Below are positions 2,960 through 63,650 of a stretch of DNA of 64,000 nt, piece by piece. The notes below the pieces were generated by a model. That model was not told the DNA's origin. It saw only the letters and a program-made list of their open reading frames with translations, and did not search any database. Position numbers and translations under genes: made by a program. How positions within the stretch are numbered: the stretch's first letter is position 1; every line of letters begins with the position of its first letter. The stretch is from Planotetraspora mira (GTDB lineage: Bacteria; Actinomycetota; Actinomycetes; Streptosporangiales; Streptosporangiaceae): assembly GCF_016863275.1 (NCBI RefSeq), contig NZ_BOOO01000020.1, forward strand, positions 186,001 through 250,000, given 5' to 3'.

Positions 2960-3753
2960 CCCGCGTCCCCCTCGGTCACGTCGCCGGCCGGTGCCGTACG
3001 GGATCGCGAGTCCAACTCGGTCGCGTCGCCGGCCGGTGCCGTACGGGATCGCGAGTCCAACTCGATGAGACCGTCACGGACATGGATCTGCCGGCGGGCG
3101 CGGGCCGCGACGTCCGGCTCGTGCGTGACCAGGACGACGGCCACTCCGCTGTCGGCGTTGAGGCGTTCGAGGAGGTTCATCACCTCTTCGCCGTTGCGCG
3201 TGTCGAGATTGCCGGTCGGCTCGTCGGCCAGGACGACCTGAGGATCGCCCACCAGGGCACGGGCGATGGCGACCCTTTGCTGCTCGCCGCCGGACATCTG
3301 GGAGGGCCGATGGCCCAGCCGGTGCCCGAGCCCCACGGCCTTCAGCGCCGCCTCGGCCCGGGCGCGCCGTTCCGATCTCGTGACGCCCCGGTAGACGAGG
3401 GGCAGCGCCACGTTGTCGAGCGCCGGAGTCCGGGCGAGCAGGTGGAAGGACTGGAAGACGAAGCCGATGGTCTGGTTGCGCAACTCGGCCAGGCGGGTGT
3501 CGTCGAGGGTCGCGACGTCGACCCCGCCCACCCGCAGGATGCCCGACGTCGGCCGGTCGAGACAGCCCAGCAGGTGCATGAGCGTGGACTTTCCGGAGCC
3601 GGACGGCCCGAGGATGGCCACGAACTCGCCCTGGTCGATGCGCAGGTCCACGCCGCGCAGGGCGTCCACAGACACGCCTTCGAGGTCGTACGACCTGGTC
3701 AGCCCGATCGCCTCGAACGCCGCGGGCGACGTCATGGGGGGTTCCGTCGTCAT
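2956..3753 (-). CDS. MacB/LolD-type ABC transporter ATPase
   Basis: 265 aa, start ATG 3751-3753, which overlaps the adaptor stop codon (ATGA). Walker A GPSGSGKS at 49-56, Q-loop around 100-101, signature SGGEQ at 154-158 and Walker B VVLADEP at 173-179 are all intact. It should energise the FtsX permease encoded immediately downstream. The odd part is the extreme C-terminus: residues 231-245 are repeated almost exactly at 246-260 because of a 45-bp tandem duplication in the DNA. The duplicated tail lies beyond the nucleotide-binding domain, so activity is probably unaffected. Confidence 0.92.
   Translation of the reverse strand: MTTEPPMTSPAAFEAIGLTRSYDLEGVSVDALRGVDLRIDQGEFVAILGPSGSGKSTLMHLLGCLDRPTSGILRVGGVDVATLDDTRLAELRNQTIGFVFQSFHLLARTPALDNVALPLVYRGVTRSERRARAEAALKAVGLGHRLGHRPSQMSGGEQQRVAIARALVGDPQVVLADEPTGNLDTRNGEEVMNLLERLNADSGVAVVLVTHEPDVAARARRQIHVRDGLIELDSRSRTAPAGDATELDSRSRTAPAGDVTEGDAG
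2975..3064 (-). repeat. 45-bp tandem duplication at the 3' end of the ATPase gene
   Basis: Two head-to-tail copies, 2975-3019 and 3020-3064, differ at a single base (GTCACG versus GTCGCG at the start). The unit is in frame and doubles a 15-residue tail (ELDSRSRTAPAGDAT, then ELDSRSRTAPAGDVT). The near identity suggests a recent slippage or unequal-crossover event. Confidence 0.95.
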
Positions 3754-5138: not shown

Positions 5139-5207
5139 TCGATCAATCGTAAACGGATGGTCAACAACCCCCCTTTAACTACCCACTTCACCACCCGCTT
5201 CCCCACC

Positions 5208-5259
5208 GGCCGTCACCACCGGCCGTCACCACCGGCCTTCACCACCGGCCTTCACCACC
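5208..5259. repeat. 13-bp tandem repeat, four copies
   Basis: Four consecutive 13-bp units with pattern GGCC(G/T)TCACCACC: two GGCCGTCACCACC, then two GGCCTTCACCACC, with more degenerate relatives to the left. It lies between the start of the adaptor gene and the first 53-bp repeat array, and abuts the first GTGATCATGCAC core (5263). Simple tandem repeat; no function is evident. Confidence 0.9.
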
Positions 5260-5262
5260 GGC

Positions 5263-5434
5263 GTGATCATGCACAGGTTCGTGATCACGTTGCCTGACCG
5301 GCGCAAACCCCGCCCGTGATCATGCACACTTTCGAAATCTTGCCGTCCTGCCAGGGAAAATACCGATCGTGATCATGCGCGAATTCTGTTTTCATCTACC
5401 GCGACCAGCGCGAACACCTCGCGCGATCATGCAA
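5263..5434 (+). repeat. 53-bp phased intergenic repeat, array 1 (four units)
   Basis: Cores GTGATCATGCAC at 5263-5274 and 5316-5327, GTGATCATGCGC at 5369-5380, and a decayed GCGATCATGCAA at 5423-5434. Start-to-start distances are 53, 53 and 54 bp. Units 1 and 2 continue into (A/T)TTCG; unit 1 has the second conserved box TGACC about 34 bases in, flanked by TTGCC and GGCGCAA, which can form a short stem. The array fills the space between the divergent adaptor gene and the MFS gene and points towards the MFS gene. It is not CRISPR: cores are only 12-19 bp and the intervening bases are themselves conserved between arrays. Confidence 0.9.
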
Positions 5435-5493
5435 TCCGCTCGCCATGCGGACGGCCACCACGTGGTCGCCACTCAGGAAAACCCCTTTGATTA

Positions 5494-5504
5494 GGAAACT
5501 TTCC
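5494..5504. promoter_or_regulatory. Palindrome ahead of the MFS gene, possible operator
   Basis: GGAAACTTTCC is an exact odd-centred palindrome within an A/T-richer stretch (TTAGGAAACTTTCCAAT), 44 bp before the preferred MFS start. TTAGGAAA-TTTCC-type elements occur upstream of many actinomycete genes and are typical of repressor sites, but no cognate regulator is encoded next to it. Called on symmetry and position only. Confidence 0.35.
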
Positions 5505-5548
5505 AATCTGGCATGATGTCCGCGGCGGATCGGACATCAGGGGGCGAA

Positions 5549-6772
5549 GTGGCGCAGGCCGTACAGGCTGTGGGAAAAGAGCAGCGGCTCCCCCTGTGGA
5601 CGAGGGACTTCGCGCTCTACTTCGTCGGCCGGGCCATCTCCATCCTCGGCGACGCGATGTTGCCCGTCGCCGTCTCGCTGGGCGTTCTGGGAGCCGGATA
5701 CGGGTCCACCGGTGTCGGATTCGTCCTCGCCGCGTGGATGGCCCCCATGGGCACCCTCATCCTGTTCGGCGGAGTCTTCGCCGACCGGTTCACCGCTCGG
5801 CGCATGATGATCGGCGCCGACCTGGTGCGAGTCGTCACGCAGTCCGTCATCGCGATCAGCTTCCTTACCGGCAGGCCCTCACTCGTTCTGCTCATCGTGC
5901 TCTCGGCGCTGAGCGGCGCCGCCGCCGCGATGTTCCAGCCGGGCGTGGCGAGCATGGTGCCGCAGATCTCCCGAGACGTGCAGCGGGCCAACGCCACCCT
6001 GCGGGTCGCCGACGCCATCGCCCAACTGTTCGGACCCGCGCTTTCCGGAATCCTGGTGGTCTTCGGCGGCGCGGGCGTCGTCTACGGCGTCAACGCCGGC
6101 ACCTTCGCGGTGAGCGCCGTCTGCATCCTGTCGCTGAGCGTCCGTCCGGTAGCGTCGATCACCGCGGGATCGTCGATGCTCAGAAACCTGCGTGAGGGCT
6201 GGGACGAGTTCCGGTCCCGGACATGGATGTGGGCGGTCATCCTCGTCTGGGCCGTCTACGGCGTGGTGGTCTTCGGCCCCCTCGTGCCCCTCGGAGCCGC
6301 GCTGGTCACCGAAGAACTGGGCAGGTCGGCCTACGGCTGGATGATGTCGGCCGTCGGCGCGGGGACCATTCTTGGCGGCATGATCGCGATGTACGTCAGG
6401 CCTGCCCGGCCGCTTGCCACCGGAGCGATCGTGATGATCGCGTTCTTCCTGGAGCCATTGGTCATCGCCACCCGGATGCCCGCCGGTGTGATGGCGGCCG
6501 GGTTCGCCCTCAGCGGGGCGGCGTGGGCCTTCTGGTCGGTGATGTGGGCCACCAGCATCCAGACCAAGGTCGCTCCGGACGTCCTCAACCGGGTGACGGC
6601 CTACGAGGTCGGGGGCTCGGTCCTCAGCATGCCGATCGGCCAGGCGCTCTCCGGGCCCGTCTCCGAACGGGTCGGAGCCGATCACGTGCTCCTGTTCGGT
6701 TTCGGCGTGGGACTGGCCGGCATCGTCGTCCTGCTGAGCGTGCCCGCGATCCGGAACCTCCGCAGGGCATGA
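5549..6772 (+). CDS. MFS transporter
   Basis: 407 aa from GTG 5549, which has AGGGGG just upstream (5539-5544); an in-frame ATG at 5513 would add 12 residues but has no ribosome site. About twelve hydrophobic helices are visible, with the MFS loop 2-3 motif region GGVFADRFTARRMMIGADL between helices 2 and 3. The overall look is that of the EntS-like MFS exporters common in actinomycetes, where a single polypeptide exports a small molecule by proton antiport. It is followed 45 bp later by proC on the same strand, and the pair is bracketed by inverted 53-bp repeat arrays. Substrate unknown. Confidence 0.88.
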   Translation: MAQAVQAVGKEQRLPLWTRDFALYFVGRAISILGDAMLPVAVSLGVLGAGYGSTGVGFVLAAWMAPMGTLILFGGVFADRFTARRMMIGADLVRVVTQSVIAISFLTGRPSLVLLIVLSALSGAAAAMFQPGVASMVPQISRDVQRANATLRVADAIAQLFGPALSGILVVFGGAGVVYGVNAGTFAVSAVCILSLSVRPVASITAGSSMLRNLREGWDEFRSRTWMWAVILVWAVYGVVVFGPLVPLGAALVTEELGRSAYGWMMSAVGAGTILGGMIAMYVRPARPLATGAIVMIAFFLEPLVIATRMPAGVMAAGFALSGAAWAFWSVMWATSIQTKVAPDVLNRVTAYEVGGSVLSMPIGQALSGPVSERVGADHVLLFGFGVGLAGIVVLLSVPAIRNLRRA

Positions 6773-6817
6773 GCGTCGGTAGGCTGCCAACCGGGTTCTA
6801 GCGGTGAGGACGATGCC

Positions 6818-7612
6818 ATGATCGCGATTCTCGGAACAGGCAAGATGGGCGAGGCCCTCCTGTCCGGACTGGTGCGGGCCGGCCTCCGGCCGCACGAGAT
6901 CACGGCGACCGTCCGGCGCCCGGAACGCGCCGAGGCCCTGCGCGAGCGGTACGGCGTGCGGGTGACCGACAACGCCGAGGCGGTCAAGAGCGCCGAGACC
7001 ATCATCCTCGCGGTCAAACCGCAGGACATGGCGAGCCTGCTCGCCGAGATCGCCCCCCACCTCACTGCGGGCAGCCTGATCATCTCGGTGGCGGCGGGCA
7101 TCACGACCGGCTTCGTCGAGGCGAGGCTCGGCGGCGAGGTGCCCGTCGTCAGGGTCATGTCCAACACCCCCGTGCTGGTCGACGAGGCCATGAGCGTCAT
7201 CTCCGCAGGTGAGCACGCGTCGGAGGCCCACCTCAAGCGAGCCGAGGACCTGCTCTCCCCCGTCGGCAAGGTGCTGCGGATCCCCGAGTCGCAGCAGGAC
7301 GCCGCAACCGCGCTCTCCGGCAGCGGCCCGGCGTATTTCTTCTACCTGGTGGAGGCCATGGTCGACGCCGGCATCCTGCTGGGCATGCCCCGCGCGGCCG
7401 CGCTCGACATGGTCACCCAGTCGATCGTCGGCGCCGCGATCATGCTTCGCGACTCCGGCGAGCACCCGGTGATCCTCCGCGAGGCCGTGACCTCTCCCGG
7501 AGGCACGACGATCGCCGCCATCGCCGAACTGGAGCGTCACAAGGTGCGCGCCGCGTTCCTCGACGCCATCGAGGCGGCTCGCGACCGCAGTCGCCAGCTC
7601 GCCTCCGGCTGA
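6818..7612 (+). CDS. proC: Pyrroline-5-carboxylate reductase
   Basis: 264 aa. The product reduces 1-pyrroline-5-carboxylate to proline with NAD(P)H, the last step of proline synthesis. The N-terminal Rossmann motif is ILGTGKMGEAL (residues 4-14), followed by LAVKPQD, and the C-terminal family signature is AVTSPGGTTIAAI (about 225-237). Length is normal for the family. GAGGA lies about nine bases upstream of the ATG. Gene order acuC / MFS / proC resembles that in streptomycetes. Its 3' end is followed by 53-bp repeat array 2 rather than by an obvious hairpin terminator. Confidence 0.96.
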   Translation: MIAILGTGKMGEALLSGLVRAGLRPHEITATVRRPERAEALRERYGVRVTDNAEAVKSAETIILAVKPQDMASLLAEIAPHLTAGSLIISVAAGITTGFVEARLGGEVPVVRVMSNTPVLVDEAMSVISAGEHASEAHLKRAEDLLSPVGKVLRIPESQQDAATALSGSGPAYFFYLVEAMVDAGILLGMPRAAALDMVTQSIVGAAIMLRDSGEHPVILREAVTSPGGTTIAAIAELERHKVRAAFLDAIEAARDRSRQLASG

Positions 7613-7656
7613 CATCTCGTACGGCTCTCGCGCCCGACTGGGCCTCCTGACCCCTC

Positions 7657-7827
7657 GTGCATGATCACGACAAGAGAATGCCCTGGTCGTACGGCACGGG
7701 CGCGAATCTGTGCATGATCACGCCGGGTATCCGCGCAGGTCATACGACACGATCACGAATCCCTGCATGATCACGCCGAGAGAATGTGCAGGTCATGTGG
7801 CATGAACACGAACCTGTGCATGATCAC
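7657..7827 (-). repeat. 53-bp phased intergenic repeat, array 2 (four units, inverted)
   Basis: Cores, written on the plus strand as GTGCATGATCAC, are at 7657-7668, 7710-7721, 7763-7774 (CTGCATGATCAC) and 7816-7827, exactly 53 bp apart. They point opposite to array 1, so the two arrays form an inverted pair around MFS and proC. Units also share the internal box GCAGGTCAT (minus strand ATGACCTGC) and a CACGAA(T/C)C flank. The array fills the gap between the convergent ends of proC and the ABC-2 permease gene. Confidence 0.92.
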
Positions 7828-7850
7828 GGCCCAGGGGGGAGGGGGGAAAG

Positions 7851-16896: not shown

Positions 16897-18174
16897 ATGT
16901 CCAGGACATCACGAAGTATGCGGGGGCGGTGCGTCGTTCTGGCGGCGGTCACCGCTGGGGTGAGCTGGCTCGCGACCGGTCACGCGATGGCGGACGGCAC
17001 GACCATGACCGATGCCTGCAAGCCGCATAACCAGAGCTCGCCGGCGAACCTGAACACTCTCACTCCGCCAAGCGGAGTGCTCAGCATCGCCGACACCGCA
17101 GGGGCCGCAGCCGCACACGGGTTGCCCTCCATGCCCGGCCGGCCGGCCACCACACCCGACGGCGACACGCCCAAGGGCGGCACCCCCAAGGGGGGCACTG
17201 CCAAGGGCGGCGCAGCGCAGGGCGGGGCTGCCAAGGGCGGCGCAGCGCAGGGCGGCACTGCCAAGGGCGGGGCAGCGCAGGGCGGGACCGCCAAGGACGG
17301 CGCGGCGCAGGGCGGCACTGGCAAGGGCGGCGCGGCGAAGGGTGTTCAGGGTGCCCCGGGCAAGTCCGCCGCAGGCCGCCCGAGGACGCTTCCGGCCCCC
17401 GCGCCCGACGCGTCGACGGTGCTGCCGGCGATGCCGAACAGCAAGAAGGCGGCTCCCGCGGGAGCGCAGACGGCGCCTCAGGCCGTGTCCAAGGCAGTGC
17501 CCGGCGAGATGCCGAACCCGGCTCCGGCGGTGGACGCGGCGCAGTCCGTGGCCAAGCAGGCCGCGACAGGGGCCTCCGCCGCGACCGAGGCGGCCCAGCC
17601 GTCGACGACGGTTCCCATGGTTCCCCTCATGGCCATCGCTCCGGCACGCCCGGGCGTGATGCACCAGGCGTGCACTCCGGTGAAGGCAGCGAACGAGCAC
17701 AACCCCAAGGGCCGTGACTCGGCCGCGGACGGGCGTGGAAAGAACGACAAGTCGTCATCCCGTTCGGGCGCCGAGTTCCTCCCGGCTCATCCCCACGGCC
17801 GTCCCCACCACAAGGCGCCGTCGGCCGTCATCCAGCCGGGGGACAAGCAGCACGGCGGACAGAACGCGATGACACCCGCCGGCCCGGGCCGTCCGGCTCA
17901 CCCGAACTCCGGCGCCCAGGAGGCCGCCGGAGCCAAGGGCAAGCAGGCCGATCAGGGACGCGCACAGGGCCACCGGCGCCACGACGCGGACGCCAAGACC
18001 CGGTCCACGGAGGGCTCCAACACACGGACCGGCGTGGTGCACCCGAAGGCGCCGGCACACCCGAACGGCGCCGTACCGAACGATCTCACCGCCCCCGCTC
18101 TGGCCAAGGCCGCGGACACGCGCTCGGTGACCAGGCTCGCGAACAACGCGACCGACAGCACGATCCTGCCCTGA
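16897..18174 (+). CDS. Secreted low-complexity protein with pentapeptide repeats
   Basis: 425 aa. A signal peptide (positive MSRTSRSMRGR, hydrophobic VVLAAVTAGVSWLATG, cleavage near AMA-DG) is followed by a Pro/Ala/Lys/Gly-rich chain with no recognisable catalytic domain. Residues about 91-150 are twelve tandem five-residue units of the form (T/A)(P/A/G)(K/Q)GG. Two isolated Cys flank the central region (KPHNQ and TPVKA neighbourhoods). The composition suggests an extended cell-wall or matrix protein. GGGGG lies just upstream of the start. Codon usage is normal for the window, so this is a real gene; its function is unknown. Confidence 0.75.
   Translation: MSRTSRSMRGRCVVLAAVTAGVSWLATGHAMADGTTMTDACKPHNQSSPANLNTLTPPSGVLSIADTAGAAAAHGLPSMPGRPATTPDGDTPKGGTPKGGTAKGGAAQGGAAKGGAAQGGTAKGGAAQGGTAKDGAAQGGTGKGGAAKGVQGAPGKSAAGRPRTLPAPAPDASTVLPAMPNSKKAAPAGAQTAPQAVSKAVPGEMPNPAPAVDAAQSVAKQAATGASAATEAAQPSTTVPMVPLMAIAPARPGVMHQACTPVKAANEHNPKGRDSAADGRGKNDKSSSRSGAEFLPAHPHGRPHHKAPSAVIQPGDKQHGGQNAMTPAGPGRPAHPNSGAQEAAGAKGKQADQGRAQGHRRHDADAKTRSTEGSNTRTGVVHPKAPAHPNGAVPNDLTAPALAKAADTRSVTRLANNATDSTILP
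17167..17346 (+). repeat. 15-bp in-frame tandem repeat, twelve units
   Basis: Twelve consecutive 15-bp units encode TPKGG, TPKGG, TAKGG, AAQGG, AAKGG, AAQGG, TAKGG, AAQGG, TAKDG, AAQGG, TGKGG and AAKGV. The alternating K and Q units imply that a 30-bp double unit was itself duplicated. Copy number is likely to vary between strains. Confidence 0.92.
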
Positions 18175-62721: not shown

Positions 62722-62747
62722 CCCCCAAGCCCCGCTCCCCCTTGGGC

Positions 62748-62918
62748 GTGATCATGCACAAGTTCGTGGAAAGGCCACCTGACCTGGCCACTCTCCGATC
62801 GTGATCATGCACAGGTTCGGCAAGTGCCGTCCCGACCTGCGAAAACCCCCTCCGTGATCATGCAAGAGTTCTCGATCAATAACCATGAGCAGGCTGAACA
62901 CTGTTCGTGATCATGCGA
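62748..62918 (+). repeat. 53-bp phased intergenic repeat, array 3 (four units)
   Basis: Cores at 62748-62759, 62801-62812, 62854-62865 (GTGATCATGCAA) and 62907-62918 (GTGATCATGCGA), exactly 53 bp apart. Units 1 and 2 continue A(A/G)GTTCG and carry the second box, CTGACCTGG or CGACCTGCG. The last core overlaps the region just upstream of the DUF309 ribosome site (GGAG 62922-62925). It points towards the DUF309 gene and is the mirror image of array 4 beyond that gene. Confidence 0.92.
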
Positions 62919-63426: not shown

Positions 63427-63650
63427 CCGCATGATCACGCATCGGGTCCGGCCAGGTCAGGCCGGGGACGGCCGAATCCGTGCATGATCACGAATGGCGC
63501 CTTCGCAGGTCATGCGGCATTTTCCCGAAACCGCGCATGATCACGGAGGGGGTTTTCGCAGGTCGGGACGGCAATCGCCGAACCTGTGCATGATCACGCC
63601 CAAAGGGTGGCCAGGTCAGGCCACCTTTCCACGAACCTGTGCATGATCAC
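63427..63650 (-). repeat. 53-bp phased intergenic repeat, array 4 (five units, inverted)
   Basis: Plus-strand cores (C/G)(C/T/G)GCATGATCAC at 63427-63438, 63480-63491, 63533-63544, 63586-63597 and 63639-63650, exactly 53 bp apart. Read on the minus strand, units are arranged in the same order as in array 3: the second unit differs from the second unit of array 3 at only two of 53 positions. Stems around the TGACCT box are strong here (GGTGGCC / GGCCACC; CCGGCC / GGCCGG). Confidence 0.95.

Follow-up and report, generated by a model that had tools for sequence, protein, structure and literature searches.

The genome of a Planotetraspora species (G000, 9.03 Mb) carries a large population of intergenic repeat arrays, four of which lie in the 64-kb stretch of DNA analysed here (the window). 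Each array is a run of conserved cores set at a nearly fixed step. We conclude that these arrays probably form the dispersed part of a genome-resident system with two components, the other being a gene for an AbiEi-nuclease protein that is itself flanked by arrays. We read this as a repeat system resembling REPIN-RAYT but built on an unrelated enzyme, which would bind and cut at the repeats. The evidence comprises the anatomy of the repeat, the conservation of its core and pitch, the linkage of gene and arrays, and the grouping of array-flanked homologs. To these are added the stably inherited locus of the gene and the smaller arrays of one species that lacks it.

In the window, array 1 has cores at 5263, 5316, 5369 and 5423 (0, 0, 1 and 2 mismatches to GTGATCATGCAC; steps of 53, 53 and 54 bp), and array 2 has cores at 7657, 7710, 7763 and 7816 (0, 0, 1 and 0 mismatches; steps of 53, 53 and 53 bp). 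An earlier sequence-only reading had described these two arrays and their steps correctly. Its eight cores are all in place, although some of its supposed copies of GTGATCATGCAC are inexact by 1 or 2 mismatches, and it overlooked two further arrays near the end of the window (Table 1). At up to two mismatches, GTGATCATGCAC matched 26 times in the window, compared with a mean of 4.26 and a maximum of 10 in 100 shuffles.

Close reading of G000 covered 764 kb, namely the window and contigs C1 and C2. A profile of 99 units, drawn from C1 and the window, was conserved at positions 1-10 (the core), 16-19 (TTCG), 32-42 (CTGACCTGCGC) and 53. The second box that had been proposed (GACC at about +33) is therefore real, and this GACCTGC box is conserved along with the core, the TTCG box and the pitch. 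The last core of each array is bare. The profile contained no GTAG/CGTC tag, and the repeat is a polar GTGATCATGCAC core. In the window and C1, arrays consist of 3-5 cores and occur singly or in inward-facing pairs. Within the 764 kb, GTGATCATGCA pairs (at most one mismatch) spaced 52-54 bp apart numbered 123, of which 120 were exactly 53 bp apart, and 97 of 98 exact 12-mers lay within arrays of at least two.

Both the regular 53-bp step and the two-box layout extend genome-wide and are conserved. Across G000, the pattern GTGATCATGCN{40,46}GATCATGC gave 326 + 344 matches (670), while a reversed-pattern control gave 0, so the core is enriched at 53-bp spacing. The motif was found in all five Planotetraspora genomes searched (670 matches in G000, 762 in G001, 148 in G002, 599 in G003 and 685 in G004). 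Among these, G004 matches P. silvatica (100% identity over 3792 bp), whose ProC is 98% identical to that of the window genome, which places the latter in Planotetraspora; other genus names were assigned by identity to named ProC loci.

Comparison between species indicated that the units are kept in place. A syntenic array was present in G003 for 17 of the 19 arrays of contig C1 (the 17th via a spanning alignment), with an aligned identity of 91%. Across 45 pairs of orthologous units, identity was 99.1% at core positions 1-10, 76% in box 2 and 55.7% at filler positions 20-31, compared with ~36% in the filler of unrelated loci. The core thus remained nearly invariant while the filler drifted, and core and pitch are maintained in place. 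Arrays nevertheless come and go between close species. Array 1 has 4 cores in G000, 5 in G004, 3 in G003 and 2 in G002 (its state in G001 was not readable). Array 2 has 3 cores in P. silvatica and is absent from G001, G002 and G003, where the gap between proC and the permease is 18-24 bp. As array 2 is missing from three sister genomes and array 1 is present in the three that could be read, the inverted placement around MFS-proC, which had been thought meaningful, is incidental.

A dedicated DNA-binding protein had been suggested for these repeats. This was a good guess: a candidate gene lies between such arrays, and its product would be the binding partner. In G447 and G535, two genomes of one genus, the gene is flanked by arrays among different neighbours. 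In G000, the single homolog found lies outside the window on contig C30 at ~192.06-193.03 kb (L248:1477-2445), with four + cores on one side and three − cores on the other, all at 53 bp. A homolog search gave matches in 22 of 32 genomes. Among 30 homologous loci, cores were present on both sides in 16, on one side in 2, ~730 bp away in 1 and nowhere in 11. Inward arrays of at least two cores per side were found at 13 of the 16 two-sided loci, one of the 13 being a decayed remnant; two Actinomadura loci had cores in both orientations. Another gene lying between arrays (L217:7119-7757, MobA-like) was rejected as a candidate, as it did not recur at other arrays.

Two further observations tie the gene to the repeats. 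The pitch of the arrays that flank it equals that of the dispersed arrays of the same genome (Planotetraspora 53 bp, Microbispora 52-54 bp, G327 22 bp, G535 32 bp and G447 31-35 bp). A tree that included 28 of the 30 loci separated the array-bearing homologs (16), together with the unflanked homolog of G007, from the 11 others with a support of 0.973. Gene order around the locus (P450 ... GDP-mannose dehydratase) is conserved in Planotetraspora and Microbispora, G102 retaining a remnant, and four Planotetraspora and three Microbispora genomes with the flanked gene have one homolog each at this position. The locus is thus vertically inherited in these two genera. Genomes of other families have 2-6 homologs each, mostly unflanked where read.

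The predicted protein, a strong candidate for the dedicated partner, joins an AbiEi-type DNA-binding domain to a Vsr/I-Bth0305I-like PD-(D/E)XK nuclease domain, judging from domain matches and a structural model. In a Pfam scan of 12 members, MTES_1575 nuclease matched 12 and AbiEi_1 matched 9, with DUF559 also matched; PADLOC AbiEi models matched all 12. The AlphaFold model had a predicted local distance difference test score (pLDDT) of 89.2 and a predicted template modelling score (pTM) of 0.86. With Foldseek, the N-terminal part (about residues 3-180) matched AbiEi (6y8q_A, E 6.8e-6, TMt 0.47), and the remaining similarity, with weak E-values, was to the I-Bth0305I catalytic domain (3r3p_B, E 0.15, TMt 0.76) and Vsr (1cw0, E 0.45). 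Residues E192, D224, E235, D237 and H242 were invariant in the 12 members. The Pfam scan of these members revealed no Y1 transposase domain, PF01797 not having been searched in the genomes.

The abundance of arrays was then related to the presence of the gene. G002 had no partner homolog at E 1e-3; its locus has closed up, leaving two degenerate cores. Over a compared stretch of 0.39-0.40 Mb, G002 had 10 arrays with 23 units and the gene-bearing G003 had 18 with 70, although both are equally diverged from G000 (91.8% and 91.1% identity, respectively). Arrays of G002 were shorter than those of G003 (one-sided p 4e-5) and G000 (4e-6), and fewer of its cores were exact than in G003 (10/23 vs 52/70, p 0.01). 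In Microbispora, the gene was present in all three tested species with at least 32 array matches and in none of five with 16 (one species) or 0 (four).

Several observations weigh against such a two-part system. The G002 comparison concerns one lineage, and its fraction of exact cores did not differ clearly from that of G000 (10/23 vs 49/82, p 0.23). In G078 (361 matches), G070 (109), G053 (32) and G209 (16), arrays are present although no flanked gene was detected, and G102 has 136 matches and only a remnant of the gene. Either arrays can exist without the gene and outlast it, or a divergent partner escaped the search. Conversely, G007, G344, G361 and G375 have homologs and no array population by the patterns used, with single cores beside the homolog in G361 and G375. 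The sixteen flanked loci are also not independent cases, because they represent only about five distinct contexts: Planotetraspora/Microbispora; G447; G535 and G329; G388, G375 and G327; and Actinomadura G069 and G108. These were recognised from translated flanks, in which G388, G375 and G327 (three genera of one other family) have a second locus in common and G329 and G535 a common neighbour, and G447 and the first locus have in common only a moderately similar P450 (~50%). Finally, the stability of the partner locus argues against an enzyme that moves itself.

Restriction of the repeat to one genus was suggested by our first pattern, which matched Planotetraspora only; a relaxed core then matched other genera and families. 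It had at least one match in 20 of 297 genomes of the family, belonging to 10 of 68 genera, four of them by single matches and six with arrays. The 11-nt core, GTGATC(A/T)TGCA in genus-specific dialects, is found again in three or more other families, at pitches of ~17-58 bp. Ten of the 394 genomes in a class-wide sample gave matches, namely G000, G136, five genomes with clear arrays (G327, G329, G388, G447 and G535, from three other families) and, with weaker matches, G579, G491 and G640. In those families, a genus-specific extension follows the core, and facing cores can make palindromes, which are perfect or near-perfect over ~47-54 bp in G447, G535 and G329 and less perfect over ~40-50 bp in G388. 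Loci in G070, G078, G202 and the other-family stretches were picked around arrays.

Pitch varied with lineage. Among the six array-bearing genera of the family, it was 52-54 bp in Microbispora (core GTGATCTTGCA), mostly 53 bp in Sphaerimonospora, mostly 41 bp in NEAU-GS5 and 31-45 bp in Actinomadura. In the other families it was 22 bp (G327), 32 bp (G535), 31-35 bp (G447) or 34-38 bp (G388 and G329), with some longer steps. The sequence-only reading had proposed a spacing of exactly five helical turns. As a general rule this fails: pitches of 31-35, 41 and 53 bp fit three, four and five turns, whereas those of 34-38 bp are not whole turns, so that five-turn phasing belongs to some lineages and not to the whole system. 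Some dialects showed peculiarities. In the 41-bp lineage (G070, NEAU-GS5; L175-L178), box 2 appeared by eye to be reversed relative to the core (GCAGGTC vs GACCTGC). In Sphaerimonospora (G053 and G102), one triplet of the dialect GTGATCTTGCAG AAA/TTT CTCGCA often alternates between AAA and TTT, as though either sense of a symmetric triplet were acceptable. Locus L234 of G327 has 19 tandem cores at exactly 22 bp, starting 20 bp past a stop codon.

Under the two-part system that we favour, the AbiEi part would most likely bind the core, and perhaps box 2 too, cooperatively along the array. The nuclease part would nick or cut at or near the cores, and repair by misaligned or ectopic copying could then add units and occasionally seed new sites. 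Intergenic 3' ends would be the sites where arrays are tolerated or useful. Binding, cleavage, copying and any benefit to the host are inferred. More tentatively, the arrays and gene of these Actinobacteria may represent an as yet undescribed class of genome-resident genetic symbiont. In this nuclease-driven, homing-like repeat drive, an AbiEi-nuclease would copy and maintain its own recognition site as arrays at the 3' ends of genes without a transposase, with the 11-nt core kept across families and dialect and pitch specific to each genus.

A host function at transcript ends is a serious rival, and we give it a smaller but real chance. It would make the arrays a host-owned 3'-end device, bound by the AbiEi-nuclease or another factor as roadblocks, terminators or insulators and kept by host selection. 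Placement is consistent with this. In five genomes of the family, a same-strand gene lies upstream of 75 of 105 arms, for 57 of these within 40 bp of the stop codon, and in 13 arms the TGA of the first core doubles as the stop codon of the gene. (Genes were called by a home-made dicodon script, in which start codons are uncertain.) The corresponding count of core runs that follow a same-strand gene was 41 of 50 in six genomes of other families, where single cores within predicted genes were skipped. Convergent intervals held 10 of 24 elements, compared with 120 of 698 background intervals. A C-rich, G-poor leader also precedes the heads of arrays, with a mean C-G in 25 nt of 9.1 (36 arms) vs 0.6 at 404 array-less stops (one-sided p 4e-15).

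Other results speak against a host device. The leader was about equally strong at heads facing gene starts (7.9, n=27, vs 8.8, n=70, p 0.6), and therefore belongs to the array and not to gene ends. In codirectional intervals, single arms point in either direction (12 vs 7), the gain or loss of array 2 between close species was not accompanied by an obvious replacement signal, and the same placement could arise from promoter avoidance alone. Two specific versions were set aside. A Rho utilization (rut) site, suggested by the C-rich leader, was weakened by the leaders of start-side heads. For a terminator stem split by the array, flank complementarity was no better than in mismatched within-genome flank pairs (z -2.4 to 0.5).

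We consider it improbable that the arrays are ordinary miniature mobile elements resembling miniature inverted-repeat transposable elements (MITEs), moved by some other transposase, with the AbiEi-nuclease gene as a passenger. The presence and absence of arrays between close species would fit such elements, as would a dispersed subfamily of whole paired elements in G078 (~262 bp, 77-86% alike over 250-306 bp; L159-L167), which is a sign of copying of complete elements. However, there was no obvious target-site duplication at arrays, the longest flank repeats being short. Unlike dead insertions, the cores stay nearly invariant in place while the filler drifts, and arrays flank members of one gene family in about five distinct contexts. 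In Microbispora G202 (L168-L174), the two arms abut (gap 0) in 6 of 7 paired elements, and 4 of 7 are 236-237 bp long.

Still less likely is a defence or self-recognition role, in which the AbiEi-nuclease would be an anti-phage gene whose operator sites multiplied genome-wide to titrate or restrain the enzyme. AbiEi antitoxins bind inverted repeats at their own promoter, and the PADLOC matches and the position of the gene between its own repeats agree with this idea. On the other hand, hundreds of arrays seem more than titration needs, and there was no AbiEii-like gene among six direct neighbours at three loci, one neighbour having no Pfam match. These neighbours were P450 and GDP-mannose dehydratase at the G002 locus, where the gene is lost, P450 and Rieske oxygenase in G447, and the one without a match and a GGDEF-EAL protein in G535. 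Least likely of all, facing cores might matter only as transcribed stems of RNA hairpin terminators; the palindromes of G447, G535, G329 and G388 would suit this, but unpaired single arms retain the same units and spacing, the 99 units showed no convincing pairing covariation, and no Rfam family matched at arrays from five sources (the window, L223, L224, L231 and L168).

The features of the window are listed in Table 1. Arrays 3 and 4 face each other across a DUF309 gene, and the first two units of array 4 are closely similar to the first two of array 3. The MFS-proC and DUF309 genes look like ordinary neighbours of the arrays.

Table 1. Repeat arrays and leaders in the 64-kb window.
Feature	Position	Strand	Description
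Array 1	5263..5434	+	Four GTGATCATGCAC cores; between HlyD-like gene (−; named by inspection) and MFS gene (+)
Array 2	7657..7827	−	Four cores; between convergent proC (+) and ABC-2 permease (−); head 23 bp past permease stop codon
Array 3	62748..62918	+	Four cores, 53-bp step; head 26 bp past alpha/beta-hydrolase stop codon
Array 4	63427..63650	−	Five cores, 53-bp step; head 25 bp past stop of trypsin-like open reading frame (named by inspection)
C-rich leader of array 2	7828..7850	−	G-rich on +; just beyond array 2 head; missing in sister genomes without array 2
C-rich leader of array 3	62722..62747	+	From hydrolase stop codon to array 3 head

Other features were seen in the window. A 13-bp tandem repeat, CTTCACCACCGGC, in 6 copies (5186-5262) touches the head of array 1 and is not found in G002, G003 or G004. 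There is a 45-bp direct duplication (2971-3064) close to the end of an ABC-transporter open reading frame (named by inspection), a 15/30-bp tandem repeat of ~5.7 x 30 bp (17171-17342) and a 6C RNA (Rfam RF01066; 56225-56300, − strand) at 56.1 bits, which exceeds the gathering score.

Among bacteria, HUH transposases already provide a case of genome-wide repeat families that have a dedicated partner enzyme (REPIN-RAYT). If our interpretation is true, intragenomic repeat populations with a partner enzyme evolved more than once, here around an unrelated AbiEi-Vsr-type nuclease, and a protein family that had no assigned role gains one. Whether extragenic repeats are kept up by host or enzyme also becomes testable in culturable soil bacteria, with Planotetraspora G002 and several Microbispora as natural gene-loss controls. 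If the arrays act at transcript ends too, they would extend what little is known of termination signals in high-GC actinobacteria.

The sequence-only reading knew of no described family that matched, and likewise none was found in Pfam, NCBIfam or PADLOC beyond domain names, in Rfam for the five sources above, or in the portions of the open-licence literature available. The closest comparison is REPIN-RAYT. In two papers (PMC3733652, PMC8049555), REPs are described as short intergenic repeats, present in hundreds, that favour convergent and codirectional intervals, and the REPIN-RAYT partner gene as vertically inherited and flanked by repeats, which are commoner where the partner is present. 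The present system is alike in its hundreds of short intergenic repeats, in its repeat-flanked partner loci (16 of 30) and in a partner that is single-copy and vertically inherited in Planotetraspora and Microbispora. The lineage-specific dialects are reminiscent of REP classes. Repeats are commoner with the partner gene in Microbispora and in comparison with G002, but not in every genome, G078, G070 and G102 keeping many. The partner differs, being AbiEi plus a Vsr-like PD-(D/E)XK domain here and an HUH/Y1 tyrosine transposase there, as does the repeat, a polar 11-nt core in direct arrays of genus-specific pitch here and a GTAG (or CGTC)-tagged palindrome of 20-40 bp there. Because the HUH transposase and the GTAG-tagged palindrome are absent, this is not a member of REPIN-RAYT.

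Other systems share single features. As in AbiE type IV toxin-antitoxin systems, the N-terminal part matches AbiEi in sequence and fold, and the flanking repeats could be operators; here, by contrast, a nuclease is fused, the sites are genome-wide and the three scanned loci have no AbiEii-like neighbour. Vsr and I-Bth0305I nucleases are of the EDxHD type. The C-terminal domain aligns with the I-Bth0305I catalytic domain (TMt 0.76) and with Vsr, though with E-values of 0.15-0.45, and its acidic and His residues are invariant; homing endonucleases have a single homing site, whereas the sites putatively recognised here are dispersed arrays. DNA uptake sequences (DUS/USS) have a short core with genus dialects, form inverted pairs near gene ends and are frequent within coding sequence. 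The present repeats resemble them in core, dialects and inverted pairs, but differ in that exact cores in the 764 kb sit in arrays in 97 of 98 cases, the sole exception lying outside predicted genes.

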